From Sulfurovum sp. (GTDB lineage Bacteria > Campylobacterota > Campylobacteria > Campylobacterales > Sulfurovaceae), in contig JALUXB010000005.1 in assembly GCA_027019175.1 (NCBI GenBank), positions 1-46,470 on the forward strand: a stretch of 46,470 nucleotides of DNA, read 5' to 3'. Made by a program: the position numbers and the translations under genes. This document shows positions 8,393 through 46,470 of this stretch, piece after piece (the first letter of the stretch is position 1; every line of letters starts with the position of its first letter). The notes under the pieces are model-generated. The model saw nothing but the letters and a program-made list of their open reading frames with translations, was not told the origin of the DNA and made no database searches.

Positions 8393-8403
8393 ACAACCTC
8401 CGC

Positions 8404-8497
8404 GTAGGGTGCGTAACCACGCACCTTCAAAATTCTTTAGCAAAACAATATTTTACCATTGCTATACGCGTAAAAGGTGCGTGATTACGCACCCTAC
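8404..8497. repeat. REP/iREP pair (BIME-like element) between ubiE and xseA
   Basis: Two palindromes point outward. At 8404-8430 GTAG is followed by GGTGCGT-AACC-ACGCACC and CTTCAA. At 8476-8497 GGTGCGT-GATT-ACGCACC is followed by CTAC, the complement of GTAG. The 94-base unit matches one at 39756-39848. An outer GTAG before a GC-rich hairpin is the signature of REPs moved by RAYT (TnpA-REP) transposases. No such transposase lies in this window. Confidence 0.85.
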
Positions 8498-19570: not shown

Positions 19571-19604
19571 CTTTTCTGCTTTTTTAGGGTTTTTCAATTG
19601 TTAC

Positions 19605-19628
19605 AAGGTGCGTGATTACGCACCCTAG
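19605..19628 (-). repeat. Single REP-like palindrome between nadA and nadC
   Basis: AAGGTGCGT-GATT-ACGCACCCTAG. It is the right-hand half of the REP pair seen at 8476-8497, with the outer tetranucleotide changed by one base (CTAG instead of CTAC). Confidence 0.8.
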
Positions 19629-22889: not shown

Positions 22890-24416
22890 ATGGCCAAACG
22901 AACCGCCATCATCGATATCGGTTCGAACTCGGCCAGGCTCGTTATTTACGAAAAAACAAGCCGTTACGGTTTTCACCTTATCTGCGAACAAAAATCCAAA
23001 GTCCGCATTGGTGAAGGTGCATACGAAAAAGGCGGCTACCTTCAACCCATTGGGGTTAGACGCGCCTTTCTCACCCTTCAGTCCTTTCTACATACTATTG
23101 AGAAGTATCAGGCAAATACGGTGCGCTGTGTTGCCACATCGGCATTGCGGGATGCACCCAACGGCAATACGTTTGTCCGCTGGGTACGCAAAGAACTCGG
23201 TCTTTCCATTCGCATCATCGATGGAAATGCTGAAGCGACTTATGGTGCTATCGCAGCAAAAAATCTACTGCCGGCCAAAGAAGCCATTACCATAGACATT
23301 GGCGGCGGTTCAGCCGACATGGCGCTTATCTCCAACGGTAAAATTATTGATACCTATTCACTCAATCTTGGAACTGTCCGCCTGAAAGAACTCTTCTTCG
23401 ACAAGCAGTGTTCACGCAAAGAAGCCCGAAACGAAGCGAGAGCCTACATTCAAAAAGAGCTGAAACAGCTTCCCGAACACTTCAAGTGTGCCTTGGCCAT
23501 AGGCATTGGCGGTACAGCCCGAACACTCAGCAAGGGCGTAATGAAGCGAATAGAATACCCTCTTGACAAGCTCCATGCTTTCACATACGATGTTGAAACA
23601 CACCGCGAATATCTTGAAGCGATCACCCGTTCCAGTGCCAAAGGGCTTAAACGTTTCAACCTCAAAAAAAGCCGTTATGATACGATTAGGGAGGGAACAC
23701 TTATCTGGCTTGCCATTCTCGAACACATCGGTGCCCAAAAAGTGATGACCAGTGCCGTGGGTGTACGCGAAGGTGTCTTTTTGGAAAAGCTGCTCAAAAA
23801 TGACAAGCTCTCTTTTCCCAAAGAGGTCAACCCCAGCATTCGTTCGCTGCTTGACCGCTTCAAGACCTATGTCAACATTGAATCGAAAAAGAAACACAAA
23901 CGCCGTATTGCTTCAGCACTCTATGATCTGATGCAATGTGAGATCAAAGATAACAAACGCTATGTAAAAGAACTCCAGTGGGCACTGATGCTCTCCAATA
24001 TCGGTAAAACACTGACCATTTATAAATCACACCAGCACGCCTTCTACATCGCCATGCAGGAACTCAACTACGGCTTCACCCATGAACAGATACTGCTGGT
24101 CTCACTGCTGCTGCGTATGCACGGCAAAGAGCTGCTGCACAAGCCGCTTTTTGGCACGTTTGTCGATATGCTGCCACCCAAAAAACATCTGATGTGGCTG
24201 AGTTTCATCTATACACTGAGTATCTTCCTGCATGAAGCCTCAAATGATGCAAAGATCACTTTCAGTTACAGCAATCAAACGCTTTACATCTATTCAAACC
24301 AGACACTCTACCTGGCAAAAGAGAAAATCAAAACACTTGAAAAACCGATACCGTTTGCGATCATTATTGAAGATGAAGAGAAACTCCCAAGCTGCAAAGA
24401 GCTGGGCATAACGTAG
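22890..24416 (+). CDS. ppx: Ppx/GppA exopolyphosphatase family phosphatase
   Basis: 508 aa. The N-terminal ASKHA-fold has AIIDIGSNSARLVIYE, then CVATSALRDAPNG, the ATPase-like loop TIDIGGGSADMALI and GIGGTARTL. Residues from about 310 form the helical HD-like C-terminal domain (KKHKRRIASALYDLMQ). It removes phosphate from polyphosphate or from pppGpp; sequence alone does not decide between Ppx and GppA. It ends at 24416, where a heptamer array begins at the next base. Confidence 0.93.
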   Translation: MAKRTAIIDIGSNSARLVIYEKTSRYGFHLICEQKSKVRIGEGAYEKGGYLQPIGVRRAFLTLQSFLHTIEKYQANTVRCVATSALRDAPNGNTFVRWVRKELGLSIRIIDGNAEATYGAIAAKNLLPAKEAITIDIGGGSADMALISNGKIIDTYSLNLGTVRLKELFFDKQCSRKEARNEARAYIQKELKQLPEHFKCALAIGIGGTARTLSKGVMKRIEYPLDKLHAFTYDVETHREYLEAITRSSAKGLKRFNLKKSRYDTIREGTLIWLAILEHIGAQKVMTSAVGVREGVFLEKLLKNDKLSFPKEVNPSIRSLLDRFKTYVNIESKKKHKRRIASALYDLMQCEIKDNKRYVKELQWALMLSNIGKTLTIYKSHQHAFYIAMQELNYGFTHEQILLVSLLLRMHGKELLHKPLFGTFVDMLPPKKHLMWLSFIYTLSIFLHEASNDAKITFSYSNQTLYIYSNQTLYLAKEKIKTLEKPIPFAIIIEDEEKLPSCKELGIT

Positions 24417-24450
24417 AATTTCTAATTTCTAATTTCTAATTTCTAATTTT
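24417..24450. repeat. Heptamer tandem array AATTTCT
   Basis: Four perfect copies of AATTTCT plus a partial AATTTT, starting on the base after the ppx stop codon. Related arrays of ATTTCTC and ATTCCTC lie at 33342-33372 and 35631-35660. Confidence 0.95.
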
Positions 24451-24472
24451 GACACACGCAAAGCGTGCTGTC
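24451..24472. terminator. Hairpin between convergent ppx and bamA
   Basis: GACA-CACGC-AAA-GCGTG-C-TGTC, nine pairs with one bulged C, between two genes that end toward each other. Probably a shared terminator structure, though neither side has a strong T run. Confidence 0.45.
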
Positions 24473-31309: not shown

Positions 31310-32251
31310 TTACCATGGTCTGATATCCTTCCGCTCTTTAGGCTTTCCGGCATTCATTTCATACATCATTGTCGGCGTTCTTTTCTGCCCCATCTTCTTG
31401 AGCAACCGTTTCATCTCTGCCTGCTTGAGCTTCTCTTCTTTGCTCATCTTCTGCTTTTTGGGCTGTCCCGAAGCTTCGTTGCCCTTTTTCTCCTTGGGCT
31501 GTTTCTCTTTTTGAGACTCCCCTTTGGACTTGTCGCCTTTTTTCTTCTGATCCTCTTTCTTCTTGTCACCCTTTTTCTGCTGATCTTTCTTTTTCTGATT
31601 CTGCTTCTTTTTATCCTGACCTTTTTTATTGTCGTTTTTCTTCTTCTGACCGTTTTTATTCTCTTTTTGTTGATGCTTATCGTTCTTGTGTTGATCTTTG
31701 TTTTGTTTATTCTTTTTGTTCTGATCATTCTTTTTTTGATCATTCTTCTTCTGATCTTTGTTTTTCTTCTGATCTTTGTTTTTCTTTTGGTCTTTGTTTT
31801 TCTTGTTCTGTTTTTTCTGCTGTTTCTTCTTCTGTTCCTGCTGCTTCTTTTTACGCTTGGCAAGCTCGAGGTTAAAACGCGTATCTTTGTCCTCTCTGAT
31901 TTTCAGCGCCTTTTCATACGCTTCAATTGCCTTGTCCAGCTCGTTTTTCATAAAGTGGACGTTTCCGATATTGTGCAAACGCTGCGCCTCGTCAACCCCT
32001 TTGCCTTTCGCTTTCTCATACTCTTTGAGCGCAGCATCGTAGTTCTTTGACTTGTAGTAGGCATTTCCAAGGTCGTACGCCTTCTGCGGTGCCTTTTTGT
32101 CAAGCGAATTGAACAGTGCCGCACTTTTGGTATACGCTTTCGCATGGTATGCCTCTTTGGCCTCTTTAATGGTCTTGAAATCGGTCAAACCGGCAAACGC
32201 CGCTGTGCCCAAAACAAGAAAAAGCAGCACTGTTTTTTTCAGCCGCATCAT
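31310..32251 (-). CDS. batC: BatC-like TPR protein with lysine/glutamine/asparagine-rich tail
   Basis: 313 aa. A signal peptide (KKTVLLFLVLGTAAFA) is followed by about three TPR repeats (residues 25-130, e.g. YDLGNAYYKSKNYDAALKEYEKA and LHNIGNVHFMKNELDKAIEAYEKAL). Residues about 135-270 are extremely rich in Lys, Gln, Asn and Asp, built from near-repeats of KNKDQK and KKNDQ. The tail MYEMNAGKPKERKDIRPW may be a binding peptide. In Bat operons this TPR protein is thought to scaffold the von Willebrand proteins. Its start overlaps batB by four bases. Confidence 0.85.
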   Translation of the reverse strand: MMRLKKTVLLFLVLGTAAFAGLTDFKTIKEAKEAYHAKAYTKSAALFNSLDKKAPQKAYDLGNAYYKSKNYDAALKEYEKAKGKGVDEAQRLHNIGNVHFMKNELDKAIEAYEKALKIREDKDTRFNLELAKRKKKQQEQKKKQQKKQNKKNKDQKKNKDQKKNKDQKKNDQKKNDQNKKNKQNKDQHKNDKHQQKENKNGQKKKNDNKKGQDKKKQNQKKKDQQKKGDKKKEDQKKKGDKSKGESQKEKQPKEKKGNEASGQPKKQKMSKEEKLKQAEMKRLLKKMGQKRTPTMMYEMNAGKPKERKDIRPW

Positions 32252-33255
32252 GACACACCTCCTTTATGCACTTCTGTCCGCATGCCTGTATTGCCAAAGC
32301 GGGGAAAAGAACTCAGCCCAATCAGCAGCAGAAGCAGCCCGAATGCCAGCGGATAGTAGAAATACTCTGTACGCTGTCTGATGTGCACTTTCCCCTGTGA
32401 CTGCATTTTATATTTTGCATGGATCAAGTCTGCCAGTTTTTTCATATCATCCTTTCCGTTCCCAGCAATGACATAAGCACCTCCATTCTCTTTGGCAAGC
32501 AGCCCAAGTGCGTCATTACGCTGGGTAATGGCTATAGTACCGTTTTTCAGCACCAGCGGTTTACCGTTTTCATCCAGAACCGGTGCGCCTTTTTTGGTTC
32601 CCACCAGTACCACATACAGATCGATGTTGTTGGCTTTGAGAATGTCCGAAAAGCCTGCAATGGCCTCTTCGTCGCCACCGTCGGTGAAAAGAACCAAAAT
32701 CTTCGGTTTTTTCTCTTTAAGCACGTTTGCTGCAAGCTCTCCAAGTGCACTAAAGTCCGTAGAGCCCATACTGATGTAAGAGTCATCCACTCCCTTTACC
32801 AGCATTTTAAGCGTCGCTTTGTCACTGGTGAACGGCGCAAGAATGAAAGAGGAGTAGGCAAATGCTGCTACACCCACTTCATCGCTGGGCATGTCATCGA
32901 AAAACTCCATCATCTTTTTCTTCGCAAACTCCAAACGGTTGGGGTAGACATCTTTACTCCGCATCGAACCGGAAATATCCAGTGCAGTCAACACTGTCAG
33001 CCCCTGCACTTCCACACTTTTTTCACCTTCATCGACCACCGGACGTGCCATAGCAACGATCATGAAAAAAATAGCAGCAAAGAGAATAATATTACGCAGC
33101 CGCTGGGGCATACTCTCATCCCCGGCACTCAACCGCTCAAGCACTTTTTCATCAAAAATGCGGGAGAGGTGCTCTTTATTGGTCGAAACCAGCACAGCAA
33201 AAAGGACAAACGGTACAATCATCGCCCAAAAGAGATAGGGGTGAAGAAATTCCAT
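32248..33255 (-). CDS. batB: Von Willebrand factor A protein BatB-like
   Basis: 335 aa. Two N-terminal helices (PYLFWAMIVPFVLFAVLV and IILFAAIFFMIVAMA) and one near the C-terminus flank a periplasmic or cytoplasmic vWA domain (about 85-290). The MIDAS metal site is intact: DISGSMRS, a threonine in MGSTDFS, and FTDGGDEE. Member of the Bat complex linked to oxygen tolerance and envelope stress. ATGA overlap with the TPR gene downstream. A 117-base gap with a repeat element separates it from batA upstream. Confidence 0.88.
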   Translation of the reverse strand: MEFLHPYLFWAMIVPFVLFAVLVSTNKEHLSRIFDEKVLERLSAGDESMPQRLRNIILFAAIFFMIVAMARPVVDEGEKSVEVQGLTVLTALDISGSMRSKDVYPNRLEFAKKKMMEFFDDMPSDEVGVAAFAYSSFILAPFTSDKATLKMLVKGVDDSYISMGSTDFSALGELAANVLKEKKPKILVLFTDGGDEEAIAGFSDILKANNIDLYVVLVGTKKGAPVLDENGKPLVLKNGTIAITQRNDALGLLAKENGGAYVIAGNGKDDMKKLADLIHAKYKMQSQGKVHIRQRTEYFYYPLAFGLLLLLIGLSSFPRFGNTGMRTEVHKGGVS

Positions 33256-33278
33256 CAGTGCACCTCCCTTTGAAGGTG

Positions 33279-33372
33279 AGTGAAGCGTGAAGAGTGAAGA
33301 GTGAAGAGTTTTGGTTTGTGTTGCTGCGCAACGCTTCTATAATTTCTCATTTCTAATTTCTCATTTCTCATT
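33279..33372. repeat. Composite repeat element A: heptamer array, hairpin core, second heptamer array
   Basis: Left array of four AGTGAAG-class units (33279-33306), a 34-base core (33307-33340) with the hairpin GTGTTGC-TGC-GCAACGC, then ATTTCTC-class units running into the batA stop codon. The core matches 35563-35596 at all but five positions. It fills the gap between batA and batB. Confidence 0.85.
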
Positions 33373-34290
33373 TTATACGCCTCTCTGGTTTCTAAAATAG
33401 ATAAAGAGCAGCAGGCTCAATACAGCCAAAAAGAGCGGATAGACATATAGGTAGGTATGTTCTACCACTTTTTTATTATTGAGCTTGGTTGCTTCCATCT
33501 TGTCGATCTCTTCGTAGACACGCTTGAGCGCGGTTGCATCACGTGCTCCAAATGCTTCACCGTGTCCGGCTTTTGCCAGTGCTGTCAGGTAGGCTGCATT
33601 GTAATCACGCGGCCCGCCGATGCCGATGGCATAGAGCTTGATCTTGCGCTTTTCGATCATACTTTTGACATCCTGGAACGATACTTTACTCATATTGTCC
33701 ATCCCGTCAGTGAGCAAAATTACGATCTTGCTCTTGGCCTTGCTCTTGTCAAGCAGATTATAGGCCTGTACCAGCGCATCGTTGATTGCTGTACGTTTCC
33801 CTGCAATACCAAGCTTTTGCATTCTTGTGATATTGGTCAAAAAATCCTTCTCGAACGTCAGCGGTGAGGCAATGAACGCAACATCGGCAAAAGTTACCAG
33901 CCCGATACGGTCATTCTTACGCTTCTTAATAAAGTCTTCAACCACCTCTTTGACGACATCGAATTTGTTTTTAAAGATGTCGTTGGGGTCAAACCCCTGC
34001 TGACGCATCGAATCGGAACTGTCGATCACCAGTACAATGTCACGCCCCTCTTTTTTGGAATTGGAGTAGCTTTTGGTGATCACCGGCGATGCCAGTGCCG
34101 TTACCGCGGCAACGATACCCACCCATTTAAGGATGTTCAGCCAGGTACTCTTTCGCCCTTCCGAAGCGATCAGTGTTGCCACATGCGGGAAAAAGATCGC
34201 TCTGCTGCGCTCTTTACACCACTTCGCACAGGTCATAAAGATCAGTATGACCAAAAATGCCAACGGGTATTCAAAACTAAATTGACTCAT
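33373..34290 (-). CDS. batA: Von Willebrand factor A protein BatA-like
   Basis: 305 aa. N-terminal helix YPLAFLVILIFMTCA, a second at NILKWVGIVAAVTALASPVI, a vWA domain (about 85-270) and a C-terminal helix YPLFLAVLSLLLFIYF. The MIDAS site is complete: DSSDSM, GKRTAIND and LLTDGMDN. Start at ATG 34290 (AGGTGG just before); a TTG five codons earlier is less likely. It overlaps the DUF4381 gene by 14 bases. Confidence 0.88.
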   Translation of the reverse strand: MSQFSFEYPLAFLVILIFMTCAKWCKERSRAIFFPHVATLIASEGRKSTWLNILKWVGIVAAVTALASPVITKSYSNSKKEGRDIVLVIDSSDSMRQQGFDPNDIFKNKFDVVKEVVEDFIKKRKNDRIGLVTFADVAFIASPLTFEKDFLTNITRMQKLGIAGKRTAINDALVQAYNLLDKSKAKSKIVILLTDGMDNMSKVSFQDVKSMIEKRKIKLYAIGIGGPRDYNAAYLTALAKAGHGEAFGARDATALKRVYEEIDKMEATKLNNKKVVEHTYLYVYPLFLAVLSLLLFIYFRNQRGV

Positions 34291-34684: not shown

Positions 34685-35511
34685 ACTCTCATTCCTTTCA
34701 TCAGTTTCATCGCCGCATCTTCATGCGTATATATCTTCGCAAATCGGATCCCCTGCTTTTTAAACTGCCTGTAGAGCGCTTCATCGTTTTTCATCAGCGC
34801 TTTTTTGTAACTCTTCAGTGTACCGCTGTCAATATTGCCTTCAAAACTCTGTTTTGTCTCCATATCGATCAAACGCAGGTACCCAAGTTCACTGGGATCT
34901 TCTTCAAACTTGTCACGCACCATCACGGCAAAGACGTCATGCTTTTTACTAAGCAGTTTCAGATCAATCTCTCCGACAAAATCAGAAATAATAAAGAGCA
35001 GCGCTTTTTTCTTTAAACGGGTATTGAGTGTATCTACCAGTGCTTTAAAATCGGCAGGCTTTCCCAGAGGGTCAAACTCTGTCACCTCTTCAATCGCCTT
35101 GTGTACAGAAAAAAGTTTTTTACTGGGCTTGCTTAAATCATACATCTTGTCTGCAAAGAGCATATGTGAAAACAGGTCTGCATTCTTTACCGCAGAAAAA
35201 CCGATGGTACCCACCACTTCCGCAGCAATCTCACTCTTTTGCTTCACGGTTCCAAAATACATCGAACCGCTCAACATGGTCACAACTACGACGTTGAGTT
35301 CACGCTCTTCTTTGTACACCTTGACAAACGGCTTGCCAAGCTTCGCTGTCGTCTTCCAGTCAATCTTGCGGACATCGTCACCATAGACATACTCACGCAG
35401 TTCGGCAAACTCAAACCCTTCACCCTGAAAGAGAGAAGCATTATTACCGAGCATATCCCCATAGACCTGTTTACGTGTCTTGAGAACAATCTTTTTGGCT
35501 GCCTTGTTCAT
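34681..35511 (-). CDS. DUF58 domain protein
   Basis: 276 aa. The DUF58 signature is at residues 33-60: GFEFAELREYVYGDDVRKIDWKTTAKLGKPFVKVYKEER, quoted in parts (YVYGDD, RKIDWKTTAK). The rest is a vWA-like fold in which the MIDAS serines are replaced (MLSGSMYF). DUF58 proteins are always next to MoxR ATPases and are thought to be chaperone targets or adaptors. ATGA overlap with the next gene. Gap of 166 bases to moxR, filled by a repeat element and hairpins. Confidence 0.88.
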   Translation of the reverse strand: MNKAAKKIVLKTRKQVYGDMLGNNASLFQGEGFEFAELREYVYGDDVRKIDWKTTAKLGKPFVKVYKEERELNVVVVTMLSGSMYFGTVKQKSEIAAEVVGTIGFSAVKNADLFSHMLFADKMYDLSKPSKKLFSVHKAIEEVTEFDPLGKPADFKALVDTLNTRLKKKALLFIISDFVGEIDLKLLSKKHDVFAVMVRDKFEEDPSELGYLRLIDMETKQSFEGNIDSGTLKSYKKALMKNDEALYRQFKKQGIRFAKIYTHEDAAMKLMKGMRV

Positions 35512-35541
35512 CAGAGCACCTCCTCTTGGAGGTTAGTTAAT

Positions 35542-35660
35542 GGTGAATAGTGAAAAGTGAATAGTTTTGGTCTGTGTTGCCGAGCAACACCTCTATTCCA
35601 TAAAAGCTTTTTGCAAAAAAGCATACCATCATTCCTCATTCCTAATTTCTCATTCCTCAT
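35542..35660. repeat. Composite repeat element B: heptamer array, hairpin core, hairpin, second array
   Basis: AGTGAAT-class units (35542-35562), core 35563-35596 with the perfect hairpin GTGTTGC-CGA-GCAACAC, an extra hairpin GCTTTTT-GCA-AAAAAGC at 35606-35622, then ATTCCTC/ATTTCTC units (35631-35660). Same order as element A at 33279-33372. Confidence 0.85.
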
Positions 35661-35662
35661 TT

Positions 35663-35679
35663 GATCTTCCCTGAAGATC
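35663..35679 (-). terminator. Hairpin at the moxR stop codon
   Basis: GATCTTC-CCT-GAAGATC, seven perfect pairs, overlapping the moxR TGA. No T run on the minus strand, so it may attenuate or protect the moxR message rather than stop all transcription. Confidence 0.45.
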
Positions 35680-36690: not shown

Positions 36691-39600
36691 TTATTTTTGC
36701 TGTTTTAAAAAGCCCATCGCAGCAGCGATGATGTCATCGTCATCTTTGGAGGCAGCCTTGAGCACCACACGCTCTTTCCCCTCCTCTGCAAACTCGATAA
36801 AGACATTCTCCCCATAAGAAGAGACTTTGACAATACCCTGTTCTTTTGCCAACACTTTCATGACCATTACATCGATAAACTGACGGGTTACAGTATCGGG
36901 TTTGCCAAACCGGTCGGCAATCTCGCTTTCAATTTCATACACTTCACCGACACTTTCACACTGCGCCAGACGACGGTAAAGCTCCAGCCGCAGTCTGTCT
37001 TCTTCAATGAGCTCTTCACTCAGGTACGCCTGTACGGCAAGTTTCATATCGACCTGACGCGTCACCTCTTTGCTCTGACCACTCAGTTCCCTGATGGCAT
37101 CTTCGAGCATACGTAAATACAGAGAGTAACCGATCTGCTTAATATGTCCGCTCTGCGCTTCGCCGATGATATTCCCGCCACCGCGGATCTCAAGGTCATG
37201 AAAGGCCAATACCGCCCCGCTGCCAAGGTCTGAGTGGGACTCCAGTGCCAACAGTCTTCGTCTGGCATTGTCGCTCAAACGCTCTTTATCTGTCACCACA
37301 AAATAGCAGTACCCCTCTTTACCCCCACGCCCTACACGGCCACGCAATTGATGCAGATCCGCAATACCGAAATTATCCGCTCCGTCAACGATCATGGTAT
37401 TGGCATGGGGCATATGGATACCCGATTCGACAATGGAGGTAGAGAGCAGTACATCATACTCACCGTCTTCGAACTTCATCATCTCATCTTCTGTCTCTTT
37501 GGCCGAAATCTTCGAATGAAGCACGGCTATGCGCAACTTTGGCAAAATCTCAAGCAACTCTTTTTTCTTCTCTTCAATGCCGGCAATGGAGTTGAATACA
37601 TAGAATATCTGCCCACCGCGGCGAAGCTCCCTTAAAATCGCCTCTTTGATCACCTTCTCATCGTAACTCTTTACAAAGGTTCGTACCCCCTGTCGCTCCA
37701 CAGGTGGGGTAAGGATCTCAGAAAAGCTCTTTACCTGTGAAAGTGCCATATTGAGCGAACGGGGGATCGGCGTGGCTGACATGCTCAGCAGGTGCGTGTC
37801 AATACTCATCTCTTTAAGCGCTTCTTTCTGCTTGACACCAAACTTGTGCTCCTCGTCAATGACCACCAGTGCCAGGTTTTTAAACTTTGCTTTCAACAGT
37901 GCATGGGTTCCCACTACCACATCGATGCTGCCCTGCTCGAGCCCTCTTAAAATAGCGTTTTTTTCCTTCGTGCTTGTAAAGCGGTCAAGTTTGGCAACCT
38001 TGATGTCCCACTCGTAAAAACGCTCTTTGAGACTCTTGTAGTGCTGCGATGTCAACAGTGTCGTAGGGGCGATCATCATCGCCTGGTATCCGTTTTTTAC
38101 CGCAATGAACATCCCGTTCATTGCTACTTCGGTCTTCCCAAACCCTACATCCGCACTCAGCAGCCTGTCCATCATGCGGCCGCTTTGCATATCTTCCAGC
38201 ATTTCAAAGATTGCACGCTCCTGATCCTCTGTATGCACAAAGCCTGCTTTAGCCAAAAAGAGCTGATGCTCTGCCGCGATCTTTGCCGCCAACTCCCTCT
38301 CTTCGCTGTTTCTGGCTCCCTGCTCACTACTCACTAAGCGAATTCCTTTTTTCAGGTGCCGCTGTGCAGAAAGGTTGATGATCTGTGAAGCAATGGCAAA
38401 AAGTTTCTCTTTAACTTTGCCCTTGAGCTTCTTGAAGCTTGCCTTGCCCATACGGTCAAGTACCGGCAGCGCACCGCCCTCAGCCACATAACGGTCTATC
38501 ACTTCAAGGTTGCTCACCGGAATGAGCAGGGTATCTTCATTTTGGTACATGATGGTGACAAATTCCGAAGTCGCTCCCAGCACTTCACGCTTCTCAATAC
38601 CCTTGAAGATACCCACACCATGGTTTTCATGTACCACATAGTCACCGGGCTTCAGCTCATCAAGAATTATGCTTGCTTTTTTAACCTTTTTACGTTTGAG
38701 CGGTTTGTTCAAAGAAAGGATCAGCTTATCCGGTCCAAGCAGATTGACGATACCGTCCTGATAGACAAAGGTAATATTCTCAAAGCTGTGCAGCTGTGAA
38801 CCGCGGACAATACTTTCGTTTCGCGCCAGCACGGTGATTTGCTTATCTTCGTGCGATTCAAGCAGCTTGTTAGGGTCTGCTACTTCAAGATCGCGGTAGC
38901 GTGTCGCTTCCGGTACAGTAGGCAGCAAAAAGCTTTTGCGTTCCACCAACGGCGTATCCAGCTCGTAAATCTCCTGCAGCTCCTCATCAAGGTTACGGCA
39001 CAGTATACCTTTCGCAGTATCGAACGCACTTTGCCCCAGTGCTTCGAGGTGCCACAGTCCCAATGAATCAATGTCTTTGACAAAAGTATCGTAAGCACTG
39101 TGTTCACATCGGTTTTTAAGTGCCTCATGCTCCTCTGCACCCAAAGCCAGAAAGGCCGGTGTAACAGTAATACCCTCCAGTTCCTCACCCTCACGCTTCT
39201 GTGTCGTTTCATCATAATGGTGGATAGACTCCACCTCTTCATCAAAAAGTGAAATACGGTAAGGCTTGTCGCTTTTTACCGGAAAAATATCGATAATATC
39301 GCCTCTAAAAGAGACCTCTCCCCGCTGTGCAGCAATGTCGGTAAAGTGGTATCCCCACCGGTAGAGCTTCTCTTTAAGCTCAGCAAGCGTCAGAGTCTCG
39401 CCAAACTCGATGCTGAGTTCATCATAAAGTTCCGGCTTTGGAAAAGGCAGCATCACCGTATGCAGCGGCGCGATCAGTAGCGGTTTTTTAGTACTCCTGT
39501 AAAAGCCAAAAAGCGCACCAAAAAAGTCACGCAGCTCCTCACTGTAGGGACGCATATCCTCCCCCACACTCACACGGATATCGGGCAGCACAAAGGTATC

Positions 39601-39720
39601 ATACCCAAGCAGCTTTGCTACATCACCCACCTGCTTTGCCTCTTTGTCATCGGCACAGATGAGAAGATTGCTTTGGGCACCTGCTTCAAGGTACTCGTAA
39701 ATATTGCTTTGAATTATCAT
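36691..39720 (-). CDS. mfd: Transcription-repair coupling factor Mfd
   Basis: 1009 aa translocase that removes RNA polymerase stalled at lesions and recruits UvrA. N-terminal UvrB-like region (1-340), the polymerase-interaction domain with PGDYVVHENHGVGIFKG, then the RecG-like motor: SADVGFGKTEVAMNGMF (Walker A), VIDEEHKFGV (DEEH box), MSATPIPRSLNMAL, and LLSTSIVESGIHMPHANT/QLRGRVGRGGKEG. C-terminal TRCF domain. Shorter than E. coli Mfd, as in related bacteria. Residues about 462-470 (VSSEQGAR) are encoded by a heptamer array that also occurs in dnaX. Promoter-distal neighbour is moxR. Confidence 0.97.
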   Translation of the reverse strand: MIIQSNIYEYLEAGAQSNLLICADDKEAKQVGDVAKLLGYDTFVLPDIRVSVGEDMRPYSEELRDFFGALFGFYRSTKKPLLIAPLHTVMLPFPKPELYDELSIEFGETLTLAELKEKLYRWGYHFTDIAAQRGEVSFRGDIIDIFPVKSDKPYRISLFDEEVESIHHYDETTQKREGEELEGITVTPAFLALGAEEHEALKNRCEHSAYDTFVKDIDSLGLWHLEALGQSAFDTAKGILCRNLDEELQEIYELDTPLVERKSFLLPTVPEATRYRDLEVADPNKLLESHEDKQITVLARNESIVRGSQLHSFENITFVYQDGIVNLLGPDKLILSLNKPLKRKKVKKASIILDELKPGDYVVHENHGVGIFKGIEKREVLGATSEFVTIMYQNEDTLLIPVSNLEVIDRYVAEGGALPVLDRMGKASFKKLKGKVKEKLFAIASQIINLSAQRHLKKGIRLVSSEQGARNSEERELAAKIAAEHQLFLAKAGFVHTEDQERAIFEMLEDMQSGRMMDRLLSADVGFGKTEVAMNGMFIAVKNGYQAMMIAPTTLLTSQHYKSLKERFYEWDIKVAKLDRFTSTKEKNAILRGLEQGSIDVVVGTHALLKAKFKNLALVVIDEEHKFGVKQKEALKEMSIDTHLLSMSATPIPRSLNMALSQVKSFSEILTPPVERQGVRTFVKSYDEKVIKEAILRELRRGGQIFYVFNSIAGIEEKKKELLEILPKLRIAVLHSKISAKETEDEMMKFEDGEYDVLLSTSIVESGIHMPHANTMIVDGADNFGIADLHQLRGRVGRGGKEGYCYFVVTDKERLSDNARRRLLALESHSDLGSGAVLAFHDLEIRGGGNIIGEAQSGHIKQIGYSLYLRMLEDAIRELSGQSKEVTRQVDMKLAVQAYLSEELIEEDRLRLELYRRLAQCESVGEVYEIESEIADRFGKPDTVTRQFIDVMVMKVLAKEQGIVKVSSYGENVFIEFAEEGKERVVLKAASKDDDDIIAAAMGFLKQQK
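38314..38336. repeat. Heptamer array inside mfd
   Basis: GGCTCCC, TGCTCAC, TACTCAC on the plus strand. In the mfd frame it encodes VSSEQGA between IRL and RNSEERE. Bases 38315-38334 are the exact reverse complement of 46361-46380 in dnaX, 20 of 20 bases. Confidence 0.85.
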
Positions 39721-39755
39721 TGACTTTCCTGATCTTTAGCTTATGCCTGTCACAC

Positions 39756-39848
39756 GTAGGGTGCGTAATCACGCACCTTCAATCCGTTGTGAGGAAACAG
39801 CATTCACTATCGGATTACGCGTAAATGGTGCGAGATTTCGCACCCTAC
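39756..39848. repeat. REP/iREP pair between mfd and folC
   Basis: Outward-facing palindromes: GTAG plus GGTGCGT-AATC-ACGCACC at left, and GGTGCGA-GATT-TCGCACC plus CTAC at right. In the right arm the innermost pair changed from T-A to A-T, so the stem is preserved by two compensating changes. Total 93 bases, same design as 8404-8497 including CTTCAA and TACGCGTAAA inside. Confidence 0.85.
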
Positions 39849-39874
39849 GATGGGTAAAAAATTTTGTAATTATA

Positions 39875-41095
39875 CTACTTTTCACTCTTAATTCTTTTCA
39901 AAAACGCCTCAACGGTATAGAACGATCCAAAAACCAGATAGTGCTCCTTGGGATCCATCTTCCCCTCAAACATACTATAGTCGATCCCGACCCGTTTCAA
40001 TGCCGCCTCGATCGCTTCAATCGTTGTCGCACGCTGCGACGCGATAGGGATAATCTCCACCCGTTTTGTTTTGGGTTTGAGTATTCGCAGTACTGCTTCG
40101 TAATCCTTGTCATCAAGTGAATTGTAAATGAGCACCGTCTCAGGCTTCATCGATGCAACGATCGCTTTGGCAGCAAGCGGGTTATGTCCTACATCGATAC
40201 GGATATTTTCACTCAGCGGATAGAAGCGTCCGAAGAGTTCCAGTGTCTTCAGATCATCGATACTGTACTTTATGTCCAAAATATCTAAAGCCCGCAACGC
40301 CACCTTCACATTCTCAATAAGATAACCGGGCCACCCTTTCGCTTTGGCTATCTCATCCAACTGTATCATCTCCTGAACGCTGAACCCTGAACCCTGAACC
40401 CTAAAAAGCTCTGCATTTTTCTCTTTGGCAATCCGCTTCGCCACCTCAACCACTTCATCATAAGGCTGCGGTGCCAACAGCGCCTTCTTTTGGATACTGC
40501 GTATCTTGGTCACCGCAATCTCCTCGATACTATCACCCAAAAATGCCTGATGGTCAATGCCTATGGGTGTGATGACACTCAGCGCCTTGTCACAGACATT
40601 GGTCGCATCATACTCACCGCCAAGCCCCGCTTCAAGCACCATCAGATCACATTTTTCAAACACAACCAATGCCAAAAGTGTGGTATATTCAAAATAGGAG
40701 AGTGCATCGGCCATCGCTTCACCCAAAACAGAAAAAAGTTTTCGGTGTGCCGCTTCCAGTACCTCATCGGAAGCATCATCCCCGTTCAACCAGATACGCT
40801 CATTGAATTTCAGGATATGTGGAGAGGAGTAGTGTCCAACTGAAAATGGACACTTCTCATCCTCCATCTTCCATCTTCCATCTTCCATCCCTTTCCGCCA
40901 GGCAAGATAAGCCATCATTCTTCCTGTGGAACCTTTGCCATTCGTTCCGACAACATGTACGGTTTGGGGGTGATTGATATGTGGTTTGAGCATGGCATAC
41001 GCCTGGTGTACCCGCTCATGGTCAATCTCTTTGTAGTAAAGCGGTTTTTGCCCCAGAAAGGATGCTAACGGCGTAATTGGTGCTTCATTCTTCAT
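39875..41095 (-). CDS. folC: Folylpolyglutamate/dihydrofolate synthase
   Basis: 406 aa Mur-ligase-type enzyme adding glutamate to folates. The ATP loop GTNGKGSTGRMMAY (residues about 49-62), the SSPHILKFNERI block, LEAGLGGEYDATNV and GIDHQAFLG are present. Two insertions are encoded by heptamer arrays: GMEDGRWKMEDEK (about 68-80), between the ATP-loop helix and the VGHYSSPH strand, and RVQGSGFSVQE (about 232-242). The ATG at 41095 overlaps the end of the lptE-like gene by 11 bases. Gene order leuS-lptE-folC fits the phylum. Confidence 0.93.
   Translation of the reverse strand: MKNEAPITPLASFLGQKPLYYKEIDHERVHQAYAMLKPHINHPQTVHVVGTNGKGSTGRMMAYLAWRKGMEDGRWKMEDEKCPFSVGHYSSPHILKFNERIWLNGDDASDEVLEAAHRKLFSVLGEAMADALSYFEYTTLLALVVFEKCDLMVLEAGLGGEYDATNVCDKALSVITPIGIDHQAFLGDSIEEIAVTKIRSIQKKALLAPQPYDEVVEVAKRIAKEKNAELFRVQGSGFSVQEMIQLDEIAKAKGWPGYLIENVKVALRALDILDIKYSIDDLKTLELFGRFYPLSENIRIDVGHNPLAAKAIVASMKPETVLIYNSLDDKDYEAVLRILKPKTKRVEIIPIASQRATTIEAIEAALKRVGIDYSMFEGKMDPKEHYLVFGSFYTVEAFLKRIKSEK
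40373..40402. repeat. Heptamer array inside folC, CTGAACC class
   Basis: CTGAACG followed by three CTGAACC and a partial unit. In the folC frame it encodes RVQGSGFSVQE. Confidence 0.9.
40858..40892. repeat. Heptamer array inside folC, CATCTTC class
   Basis: CATCCTC, three CATCTTC, CATCCCT. In the folC frame it encodes GMEDGRWKMED just after the ATP-binding helix. Confidence 0.92.
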
Positions 41096-41636
41096 CGCCG
41101 GCAAGCATTCCTTTTGCACTCGCATACGCCATAAATTCGTCAAGCGCTTTTTCAAGCCCTTTTTTGATCGCTTCGATACGCAAGGCTGAAGAGGTCAGTG
41201 AACTTTCTTGAATATCCGCTTCATATACAGTCGATATTGTTTTGACAATCTGCCCTTTTGGGGTGATCATACGAAAATGTACACGGACATTGGTACGGTA
41301 GCGTGTTACATACCCGTTGGTATAACTTAGCGGTGTAAAACTGCTGCCTGCATAAGTAATATATATTTGCGTGTTTGCCGCTTCTTTGGAAGTAACATGC
41401 CCTTTAAACCGGGTATAGACAATACGGTTCATCTCATCTTTGACATAAGGCGCATTCTCCGGCTCTGCACGGTCTACGTTCACTTCGACATATACCGAAT
41501 CACCAAAGAGCTGCCTGACTGCATGGGCAGACGGTTTGTAGCCGCAGGCGGTTAATAGCAGCAGCGCTGCTGTTAAAACAAGTAATGAGTAATGAGTAAT
41601 GAGTAACCGATTCTCTTTTATACTTGTTCTACACAC
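41085..41636 (-). CDS. lptE: LptE-like LPS-assembly lipoprotein
   Basis: 183 aa. The N-terminus is a lipoprotein signal ending in the lipobox LTAC (Cys at about residue 31), followed by GYKPSAHAVRQLFGDSVYVEVNVDRAEPENAPYVKD in the LptE pattern. The location after leuS is the same as in E. coli and Campylobacter, which supports a role in placing LptD and LPS in the outer membrane. Start chosen as GTG 41636 because GAGGAG lies eight bases before; GTG 41660 lies in a repeat. Part of the signal peptide (LLITHYSLL) is encoded by a heptamer array. Confidence 0.8.
   Translation of the reverse strand: MCRTSIKENRLLITHYSLLVLTAALLLLTACGYKPSAHAVRQLFGDSVYVEVNVDRAEPENAPYVKDEMNRIVYTRFKGHVTSKEAANTQIYITYAGSSFTPLSYTNGYVTRYRTNVRVHFRMITPKGQIVKTISTVYEADIQESSLTSSALRIEAIKKGLEKALDEFMAYASAKGMLAGDEE
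41581..41608. repeat. Heptamer array inside the lptE signal peptide
   Basis: Three copies of AGTAATG plus AGTAACC. Read on the minus strand in frame, three units (21 bases) encode the seven residues LLITHYS. Confidence 0.92.
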
Positions 41637-41653
41637 GATTTCTTCTCCTCGGT

Positions 41654-41676
41654 TGCTCACTGCTCACTCCTCACTA
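41654..41676. repeat. Heptamer array covering the leuS stop codon
   Basis: Two TGCTCAC and one TCCTCAC followed by TA. On the minus strand this reads TAG-TGAGG-AGTGAGC-AGTGAGC, so the leuS stop TAG is the first part of the array. Same AGTGAGC class as in dnaX and mfd. Confidence 0.88.
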
Positions 41677-45178: not shown

Positions 45179-46470
45179 GTGTCATTAGCGCTTGCCAGAA
45201 AGTACCGCCCTGCCACCTTCAGCGACCTGATCGGGCAGGAGTCCGTCTCACAAACACTCTCTCTTGCGCTTGACAACGGACGCCTCTCCCATGCCTATCT
45301 TTTCTCGGGACTCCGCGGAAGCGGGAAAACCTCTACGGCACGGATATTTGCCAAAGCGCTTCTGTGTGAAAAGGGGACAAGTTCCCACCCCTGCGGCGAG
45401 TGTACCCACTGCATTATGGCAGCAGAGAACCGCCATATGGACATCATCGAAATGGATGCGGCTAGCAACCGCGGGATCGATGATATCAAAGACCTCATCG
45501 AACACACCAAATACAAACCAAGTTCCGCACGCTTTAAGATTTTCATTATCGACGAAGTGCATATGCTTACCAATCAGGCGTTCAACGCGCTGCTTAAAAC
45601 CCTTGAAGAGCCGCCGGATTTCGTGAAGTTCATTCTGGCAACCACCGATCCGCTGAAACTTCCGGCAACCATTCTCTCCAGAACGCAGCACTTCCGGTTC
45701 AAAAAGATTCCACAAAATCTGGTTCAAAAGCATCTTGAACACATTTTGAACCTTGAAGGCATCGGTTTTGACAAAGAAGCTGTCGAGATCATTGCCAGAA
45801 CCGGGGCGGGCAGCCTCAGAGATTCACTCACTCTGCTTGACCAGGCTATTGTCTATTCACAGGGACATGTCGATGTGGGTACCGTCACAGGTATGCTCGG
45901 CATCATTGAACCAAGCCTGCTTGAAAACCTGATAGAAAGCATTGTGCAAAAAGATACCGGTGCGGTACTGGCATTTCTCAAACTTGCCTCCGACTATGAA
46001 GCGGAGATGATCTTAGACGAGCTTACCCTCTATCTAAAAAGCCTGCTGCTTGAAAACGGCGGGAAGCTGACACCAATGATCATCGAGCGCTTTTTCCGGG
46101 TCATTGCCGAATCGAAAAACCTGCTTTCATTGGGAAGTGATGGTGAATTCGTTCTCTCTCTGGCACTCTTTAAAATGATGGAGGCACTACAGATCAAAGA
46201 CATCGATACGATGATCAAAGGGCTTGAGCAGGAACTTAAAGGAGTGGAGGTCAGTGAAATTGTTGTCACCACACCCGCGCCAGATCTCTCCTCCCCCAAA
46301 GAGGTGATCACGATTACCGAAGAGGAGATCGTTGCGACCATCCCGGAAATGGCAAACTCAGTGAGTAGTGAGCAGGGAGCAGGGAGCAGTGAAATAGGTG
46401 TAGAAAAGAGTGTTGCGTCTGTTATTCCTGAAGAAAATGTGGAACCTAAGCCCGTTTTGGAAACTACCTC
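45179..46470 (+). CDS. dnaX: DNA polymerase III subunit gamma/tau, 3' end cut by window edge
   Basis: 430 codons visible. AAA+ clamp-loader ATPase that opens the beta clamp. LARKYRPATFSDLIGQ at the start, Walker A GLRGSGKTSTA (residues about 43-53), zinc module CEKGTSSHPCGECTHC, Walker B FIIDEVHML, and sensor 1 LATTDPLKLPATILSR. Starts on GTG 45179 with AAGGAG five bases upstream. Residues about 395-405 (VSSEQGAGSSE) come from a heptamer array. The tau tail continues past the edge, and no frameshift site is seen in what is present. Confidence 0.96.
   Translation, partial: MSLALARKYRPATFSDLIGQESVSQTLSLALDNGRLSHAYLFSGLRGSGKTSTARIFAKALLCEKGTSSHPCGECTHCIMAAENRHMDIIEMDAASNRGIDDIKDLIEHTKYKPSSARFKIFIIDEVHMLTNQAFNALLKTLEEPPDFVKFILATTDPLKLPATILSRTQHFRFKKIPQNLVQKHLEHILNLEGIGFDKEAVEIIARTGAGSLRDSLTLLDQAIVYSQGHVDVGTVTGMLGIIEPSLLENLIESIVQKDTGAVLAFLKLASDYEAEMILDELTLYLKSLLLENGGKLTPMIIERFFRVIAESKNLLSLGSDGEFVLSLALFKMMEALQIKDIDTMIKGLEQELKGVEVSEIVVTTPAPDLSSPKEVITITEEEIVATIPEMANSVSSEQGAGSSEIGVEKSVASVIPEENVEPKPVLETT
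46361..46394. repeat. Heptamer array inside dnaX, AGTGAGC/AGGGAGC class
   Basis: GTGAGTA, GTGAGCA, GGGAGCA, GGGAGCA, GTGAAA. In frame it encodes VSSEQGAGSSE in the linker after the ATPase core. The first 20 bases match the array in mfd. Confidence 0.9.

Follow-up and report, generated by a model that had tools for sequence, protein, structure and literature searches.

The DNA analyzed here (the window, 46,470 nucleotides) is the whole of contig C5 in the 99.99% complete, 2.2 Mb draft genome (G000) of a deep-sea sulfur bacterium of the genus Sulfurovum, the closest named records to which are Sulfurovum metagenome-assembled genomes with Mfd identities of 94-96%. The contig ends within dnaX, and tandem heptamers occur in this gene, in mfd, in lptE, in a folC-like gene and in several intergenic regions, as follows.

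24410-24454, strand not assigned: intergenic (AATTTCT)n array.
33275-33377, minus strand: intergenic module consisting of an array, a stem-loop and a second array of another word, ahead of the start of the gene at 32248-33255.
35534-35661, minus strand: another intergenic module, with 82% similarity to the preceding one across 88 nt.
36691-39720, minus strand: mfd, transcription-repair coupling factor (Pfam CarD_TRCF_RID, DEAD, TRCF).
38272-38334, minus strand: lineage-limited Mfd segment VSSEQGARNSEERELAAKIAA, which starts with three heptamers and includes a 15-16 residue insert.
38315-38335, minus strand: 21 nt identical to 46360-46380 by direct sequence match.
39875-41155, minus strand: folC-like gene of a Mur ligase family protein with two arrays (Pfam Mur_ligase_M; name inferred from motifs).
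40370-40408, minus strand: second in-frame folC array, RVQGSGFSVQ.
40855-40893, minus strand: first in-frame folC array, GMEDGRWKMED, adjoining the stem AGTGTCCA...TGGACACT.
41085-41660, minus strand: lptE (Pfam LptE).
41575-41611, minus strand: heptamer array that encodes the hydrophobic signal-peptide core of the lipoprotein LptE, LLITHYSLLV.
41654-41675, minus strand: short array of the AGTGAGC class at the junction of leuS and lptE (leuS stop).
45179-46468, plus strand: dnaX, DNA polymerase III gamma/tau, 5′ 430 codons (Pfam DNA_pol3_delta2, DNAX_ATPase_lid).
46359-46392, plus strand: dnaX heptamer array AGTGAGT AGTGAGC AGGGAGC AGGGAGC AGTGAA (TRF period 7, 4.9 copies).

The sequence AGTGAGTAGTGAGCAGGGAGC is an exact 21-nt match between dnaX (46360-46380, plus strand) and mfd (38315-38335, minus strand), which agrees with, and slightly exceeds, the 20-base identity between 46361-46380 and the complement of 38315-38334 described in the first-pass annotation. 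With mismatches included, the pair spans 37 nt (38302-38338 and 46357-46393, 84% identity) and is the second longest inverted pair in the window. Across 40 windows simulated with a second-order Markov model, the longest inverted match had a mean length of 16 nt and a maximum of 23 nt, and the length of the 21-nt match is by itself unusual but not decisive. The sequence GTG AGT AGT GAG CAG GGA GC is read as VSSEQGA in both DnaX and Mfd, also as described earlier. Exact copies of the 20-mer AGTGAGTAGTGAGCAGGGAG number two in the 2.2 Mb draft genome, those in mfd and dnaX, and 14 more sites match it with 2-3 mismatches, the majority of them within other heptamer arrays, a distribution that goes beyond what codon usage predicts.

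In DnaX, the array is translated as VSSEQGAGSSE and follows residue 390, within a hypervariable linker. Among 61 DnaX rows, SEQGAGSSE is restricted to the three closest genomes, G000, G002 and G009, of which G002 and G009 are also represented by the named loci L136 and L078. Arrays also occupy another slot, close to the C terminus of DnaX, in G009 and, as judged by sequence likeness, in G080. The mfd stretch is a decayed three-unit heptamer array within a segment that follows the RID domain (356-412) and precedes the helicase domain (497-656). Mfd orthologs were drawn from 41 relatives, which yielded 30, and from 77 further loci, and about 95 were aligned; 12 distinct sequences carry the segment, while most orthologs lack the insert and read straight through, e.g. 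HLKKGIKLKRNMEEHAIF, with a net difference of 15-16 residues. The insert DNA of the 12 carriers consists of decayed heptamers, and that of L121 retains AGTGAGC AGTGAGC AGGGAGC AGGGAGC AGTGAA. In a structure model of modest quality (mean pLDDT 73, pTM 0.41), VSSEQGARN is predicted to form a coil between two helices, and the remaining insert would extend the next helix. The proposals that the two stretches are heptamer arrays of one class, and that both are in-frame insertions in linkers, were borne out; in the ortholog alignments both segments are missing from most orthologs, limited to certain lineages and conserved throughout the orthologs of neither protein. When mapped onto a tree built without the insert, the Mfd insert requires at least four changes, comprising a clade of eight rows that includes G000 and three separate lineages, and sliding protein identity across its flanks revealed no clear tract transferred from the main carrier clade. 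This scattered distribution may reflect one gain followed by losses, a very short transferred tract or independent gains.

The common reading frame of the two arrays has a simple basis. The remaining two sense frames of the dnaX array hold TGA or TAG stops, and it is because of these stops that the VSSEQGA frame is common to both genes; the shared frame is obligatory and therefore lends no independent weight to a common origin. The third unit, too, must lose its in-frame TGA, which here has become GGA. The idea that such arrays stay in frame because three heptamers equal seven codons failed: the Mfd insert spans 15-16 codons, and direct comparison shows the G009 DnaX stretch to be 33 nt longer than that of G000, a multiple of three and not of seven. 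The frame is not kept by a three-heptamer rule, therefore, but by selection on total length.

Whether the dnaX array was templated directly on an ancestral mfd array, about 8 kb away and in inverted orientation, depends on the bases that are not forced in this way. A pure (AGTGAGC)5 array with a single stop-avoiding change already agrees with the dnaX array in 31 of its 34 positions, and since the AGNGAGN class is common at unlinked sites in relatives, the shared class and the obligatory change suffice to explain these 31 identical bases. The best mfd copy, that of L121, matches at 33 of 34 bases, and the signal thus resides in approximately three shared unforced variants. In favor of copying, the 25-mer order AGTGAGC-AGGGAGC-AGGGAGC-AGTGA (at most 1 mismatch) is confined to mfd (G002, G052, G080, G081 and G090) and dnaX (G000 and G002) across 78 Sulfurovum genomes, other AGNGAGN-class arrays are mostly homogeneous, and the mfd insert has a broader phylogenetic spread than the dnaX array. 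On the other hand, a similar partial order is present in an E2 linker of G002 (L324). Specific mfd-to-dnaX copying is possible, and the order of the variants is suggestive of it, not proof; we regard it as the less probable account of the resemblance.

In-frame arrays are common in conserved proteins of Sulfurovum, as the proposed tolerance of coding DNA for them had implied. The two FolC arrays are insertions missing from most orthologs. Elsewhere in the G000 genome, a phosphomannomutase gene (manB) carries the in-frame array TLTPNPQSSILNPQLD ahead of DASIMITGSHNP, an RfbB-like dehydratase gene carries TNSTSNIQHPTLP ahead of RFHHISTDEVYG, and the starts of tilS and murI (both names from motifs) also contain in-frame arrays. 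The manB and rfbB inserts are missing from most relatives, and species that share a filled slot usually have different words in it (TCAATCC, CACTCAA or CATCGAC in manB; ACATCCA, CTCTTCA or CTATTCA in rfbB). The AGNGAGN class by itself is found in frame in more than 10 different conserved proteins of relatives, including an HD-domain protein (in three species), an E2 lipoyl-domain linker, hisH and several others (names based on motifs). All of the coding arrays seen keep the frame, are free of stops and reside in linkers, loops, termini or signal peptides. In the hisH gene of G054 (L343, 730-790), the array VSSEQVAVS lies between two copies of a 16-nt direct repeat, AATGAATTGTTCCAAG, with a combined length of about 42 nt for the array and one copy; this sole case resembling a target duplication is possibly a fresh insertion. 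A low-complexity region of 15-18 nt repeats is also present in the window at 31506-31848, where it encodes a Lys/Gln/Asp-rich stretch of the protein on 31310-32251 (minus strand).

The LptE example indicates that heptamer arrays can be put to use, in this case as a signal peptide. An array occurs immediately ahead of the lipobox cysteine in 21 of 52 lptE genes (L078, L117, L121, L082 and others), with at least seven different words, and the encoded peptides are nearly always hydrophobic (LFTIHYSLF, LFTLHSSLF, LLITHYSLL, FLIPHSSFL and others). In lptE of several species a whole stem-loop and array module is translated, and in several the stem-loop of this module encodes the LptE n-region (NKSFAKQNKPK).

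The module in question is repeated, and consists of a stem-loop, AAAAGC-stem-GCATACC, in which the stem is variable yet paired, followed by an array of a variable word. Often it ends in a second hairpin, in which the ribosome-binding site of the following gene may lie. Copies of the form AATAAAAGC-stem-GCATACC are present in the window at 33253-33377 and 35509-35663 and at L229, L231, L227, L232 and L233. In G009, a period-7 stretch comes next in 17 of 19 such stem-loops. No Rfam family matched the module in the 106 kb searched, in which only tRNA and 5S were matched. Hairpins of another kind adjoin coding arrays, in the form of palindromes with a 3′ arm that is conserved coding sequence (for example GGACGCATCGATCGATGCGTCC, GAAAACGTGGTACCACGTTTTC and GAAATCTCGCTACCGAGATTTC). 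In manB and rfbB, a perfect or near-perfect palindrome comes after the array (L234-L236, L261 and L263), and to judge from the sequences its 5′ arm looks like an inverted copy of the conserved coding 3′ arm. The arms of the rfbB palindrome differ between G002 and G009 in a compensating manner. The mfd and dnaX inserts have neither a palindrome, as determined by sequence inspection, nor the stem-loop module. A separate palindromic repeat, GTAGGGTGCGTGATTACGCACCCTAC, has several intergenic copies, single and paired (window 8403-8497, 19583-19628 and 39755-39849). Other repeat-like peptides, VNPRVDPGQTQRSAPT in the DnaX linker of L053, L058 and L059 and SCHSGLDPESP in FolC of L082, resemble translated intergenic palindromic repeats; the DnaX-linker and FolC slots may accept several kinds of repeats.

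Period-7 arrays are present in large excess throughout the genus. When 21 lag comparisons were scored with at most 3 mismatches allowed, 402 kb of G000 contained 21 period-7 arrays and none with periods of 4, 5, 8-11 or 13; the remaining periods were few, harmonics 14 and 21 excepted, and a Markov shuffle contained no period-7 array. Allowing 4 mismatches, 30 period-7 arrays of 18 unit classes were found in 665 kb of G000 (30% of its 2.2 Mb), and 200 kb samples of other genomes contained 40 (G009), 18 (G016), 5 (G024) and 15 (G027). Periods 4, 5, 8, 10, 11 and 13 yielded 0-1 arrays in the 665 kb of G000 and the 200 kb of G009. The mfd neighborhoods of relatives contributed 57 period-7 arrays in 1.03 Mb, and Campylobacter loci none in about 110 kb. 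Individual words are shared by unlinked loci far more often than random heptamers would be (20 pairs observed versus 0.5 expected; 74 versus 0.9 in G009; 13 versus 0.2), and one strand is without C in 27/29, 33/40 and 14/18 arrays (78-93%), compared to about 30% expected. Using local GC skew as a proxy, no leading or lagging bias of the G-rich strand was apparent in three genomes. By rough ORF calling, under which even the lptE array was scored as intergenic, 21 of the 30 arrays in 665 kb were intergenic, though about 90% of bases are in ORFs. The arrays of G027, which belongs to another family of the order (L214-L223), favor the words GGTCATT and CCCGATT, which suggests that word sets are lineage-specific. 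Long homogeneous arrays of 60-124 nt (e.g. TTAACTC) are also present (L161 4005, L169 16133, L193 4641, L158 8698, L163 8330 and L229 6486), several with a loosely shared tail behind them that ends in GAAGCTTAA. Most of the genomes compared are draft metagenome assemblies, and assembly may affect repeat lengths.

We propose that a process acting across the genus generates tandem heptamers at many sites, extends them and alters their words, and that the mfd and dnaX segments are probably surviving in-frame products of it. The excess of period 7, the insertion of arrays relative to orthologs, the avoidance of frameshifts and stops and the turnover of words in fixed slots are the observed parts of this explanation. 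The arrays themselves would be made by DNA polymerase, through slippage and short-range template switching, with no need for a transposase or reverse transcriptase, and out-of-frame products would be removed by purifying selection. An AGTGAGC-class array may have been acquired by mfd before a Sulfurovum subclade spread, and the common ancestor of G000, G002 and G009 would later have gained an array of this class in its dnaX linker, possibly as the same sequence copied across about 8 kb; neither Mfd nor DnaX need benefit from its array. Slippage alone leaves unexplained the few recurring words, the C-free strand and the first copy at sites without similar sequence. Template switching is able to create and maintain hairpins such as those at manB and rfbB (PMC8794818), and this correspondence leads us to favor a polymerase-based origin. 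A search for MutL found it in 14 of 14 control genomes but not in G000. Mismatch repair works chiefly on short loops, and the missing MutL may therefore contribute little to changes of 7 nt. The explanation is drawn from comparisons between species, with one genome per species, such that the birth or length change of an array within one species is not among the observations.

Transport of the heptamers by a mobile element, similar to a MITE or transposon, was weighed against this explanation, because the first-pass annotation had considered the sequence to be mobile or copy-prone. Intergenic arrays often belong to the AAAAGC...GCATACC module (the 17 of 19 cases in G009), which is translated whole at the lptE start of several species, and the G054 hisH insertion with its 16-nt flanking repeat is what an inserting element might leave. 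Nevertheless, flanking direct repeats of at least 7 nt accompany 2.9% of 241 arrays versus 3.9% of controls, the stem sequences and words vary freely between copies, and the mfd and dnaX copies are without the stem-loop module. At these two sites neither a target-site duplication nor a terminal inverted repeat was found, nor were constant element ends, the shared stretch stopping on both sides where the array stops. A mobile element is accordingly an unlikely source, and mobility of the arrays is unproven. Templated addition of heptamers by a reverse transcriptase or a telomerase-like enzyme would fit the exact 7-nt period and the small set of C-free words, which resemble its products, but is very improbable, as no RVT_1 match was found in G000 or in most of the genus relatives searched, and arrays are present nonetheless.

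Two further explanations concern the match itself. Were VSSEQGA a convergent functional motif, such as a binding peptide, selected in both proteins, the retention of the frame and much of the sequence of the Mfd insert in 12 distinct orthologs would be understandable. However, the identity is at the DNA level and in heptamer register, VSSEQGA is the sole stop-free sense reading, other words encode unrelated peptides in other genes, and codon-shuffled versions were not seen in other lineages; we give this explanation very little credence. Chance or codon usage could in principle produce such a match, one of the 40 simulated windows having contained an inverted match of 23 nt, but its probability is negligible here: both stretches are period-7 arrays of a class present at multiple loci, and both are insertions relative to orthologs, findings that rule out a chance origin. 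Extending the preferred explanation, that of a genus-wide heptamer process, we would tentatively suggest a bolder version, in which an active Sulfurovum process places C-poor arrays at new positions, in many cases along with hairpins copied from flanking DNA, rewrites the words of existing arrays, supplies essential proteins with ready-made in-frame linkers and signal peptides, and can copy arrays between genes; this version may be correct, although we consider it doubtful as a whole.

Heptanucleotides are the most abundant category of long simple sequence repeats in many prokaryote genomes, for which slippage has been proposed (Mrazek et al. 2007, as described in PMC4679880 and PMC4692102), and arrays at the same site differ in length and sequence between related species (PMC4692102). 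The Sulfurovum arrays share with these the excess of period 7, dispersal throughout the genome, preference for non-coding DNA and variation at orthologous sites. They differ from the heptanucleotide repeats so described by having many words per genome and one strand mostly without C, and ortholog comparison in Sulfurovum reveals in-frame insertions in enzymes and turnover of words in fixed slots. In Xanthomonas and Nostoc, quadruplex-forming GGGAATC heptamers make up hundreds of dispersed arrays, mostly intergenic and near ORF ends (PMC4692102); that system uses one G-rich word, and in-frame insertion into conserved proteins is outside the subject of that study. The TAACTGA direct repeats of Beggiatoaceae, Cyanobacteria and Bacteroidetes form dispersed arrays, many of them just upstream of start codons (MacGregor 2015, PMC4679880), and some lie within ORFs, in a forced stop-free orientation and mostly at protein ends (PMC4679880). 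That system is based on one word, with related heptamers rare, whereas Sulfurovum uses many words and the internal loops of housekeeping proteins are hit; TAACTGA was not among the 18 unit classes in 665 kb of G000. In Rickettsia, palindromic elements are short non-coding repeats, about 100-150 nt long with conserved palindromes, that occur as in-frame insertions of housekeeping proteins. In contrast to these, the segments in mfd and dnaX consist of short tandem heptamers and contain no palindrome, although the manB and rfbB arrays adjoin palindromes. The tandem repeats of Borgs occur in ORFs under frame selection, where they mostly give rise to disordered segments, and form rapidly and independently (PMC9879509); Borgs are archaeal extrachromosomal elements, while the Sulfurovum arrays have a 7-nt period and reside in a bacterial chromosome.

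The dominance of heptamers among the longer repeats of bacteria has been an open question since it was first noticed. In Sulfurovum, the conserved proteins contain dozens of slots, some filled and some empty, in which array birth, word turnover and frame selection can be traced, and together with LptE these slots make slippage, template switching and mobility directly testable against one another. None of the papers searched dealt with heptamer arrays in Sulfurovum. The standing of heptamers as the commonest longer repeats, the proposal of slippage and the presence of TAACTGA arrays inside ORFs were already known; the present analysis adds direct ortholog evidence that arrays have been inserted in frame into many conserved enzymes, together with the C-poor rule, the replacement of words within fixed slots, the stem-loop module and the signal peptide of LptE. 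Compared to the known heptamer arrays of bacteria, it is the scale of the phenomenon in Sulfurovum, its frame-filtered spread into conserved enzymes and the rapid change of its words that are surprising.
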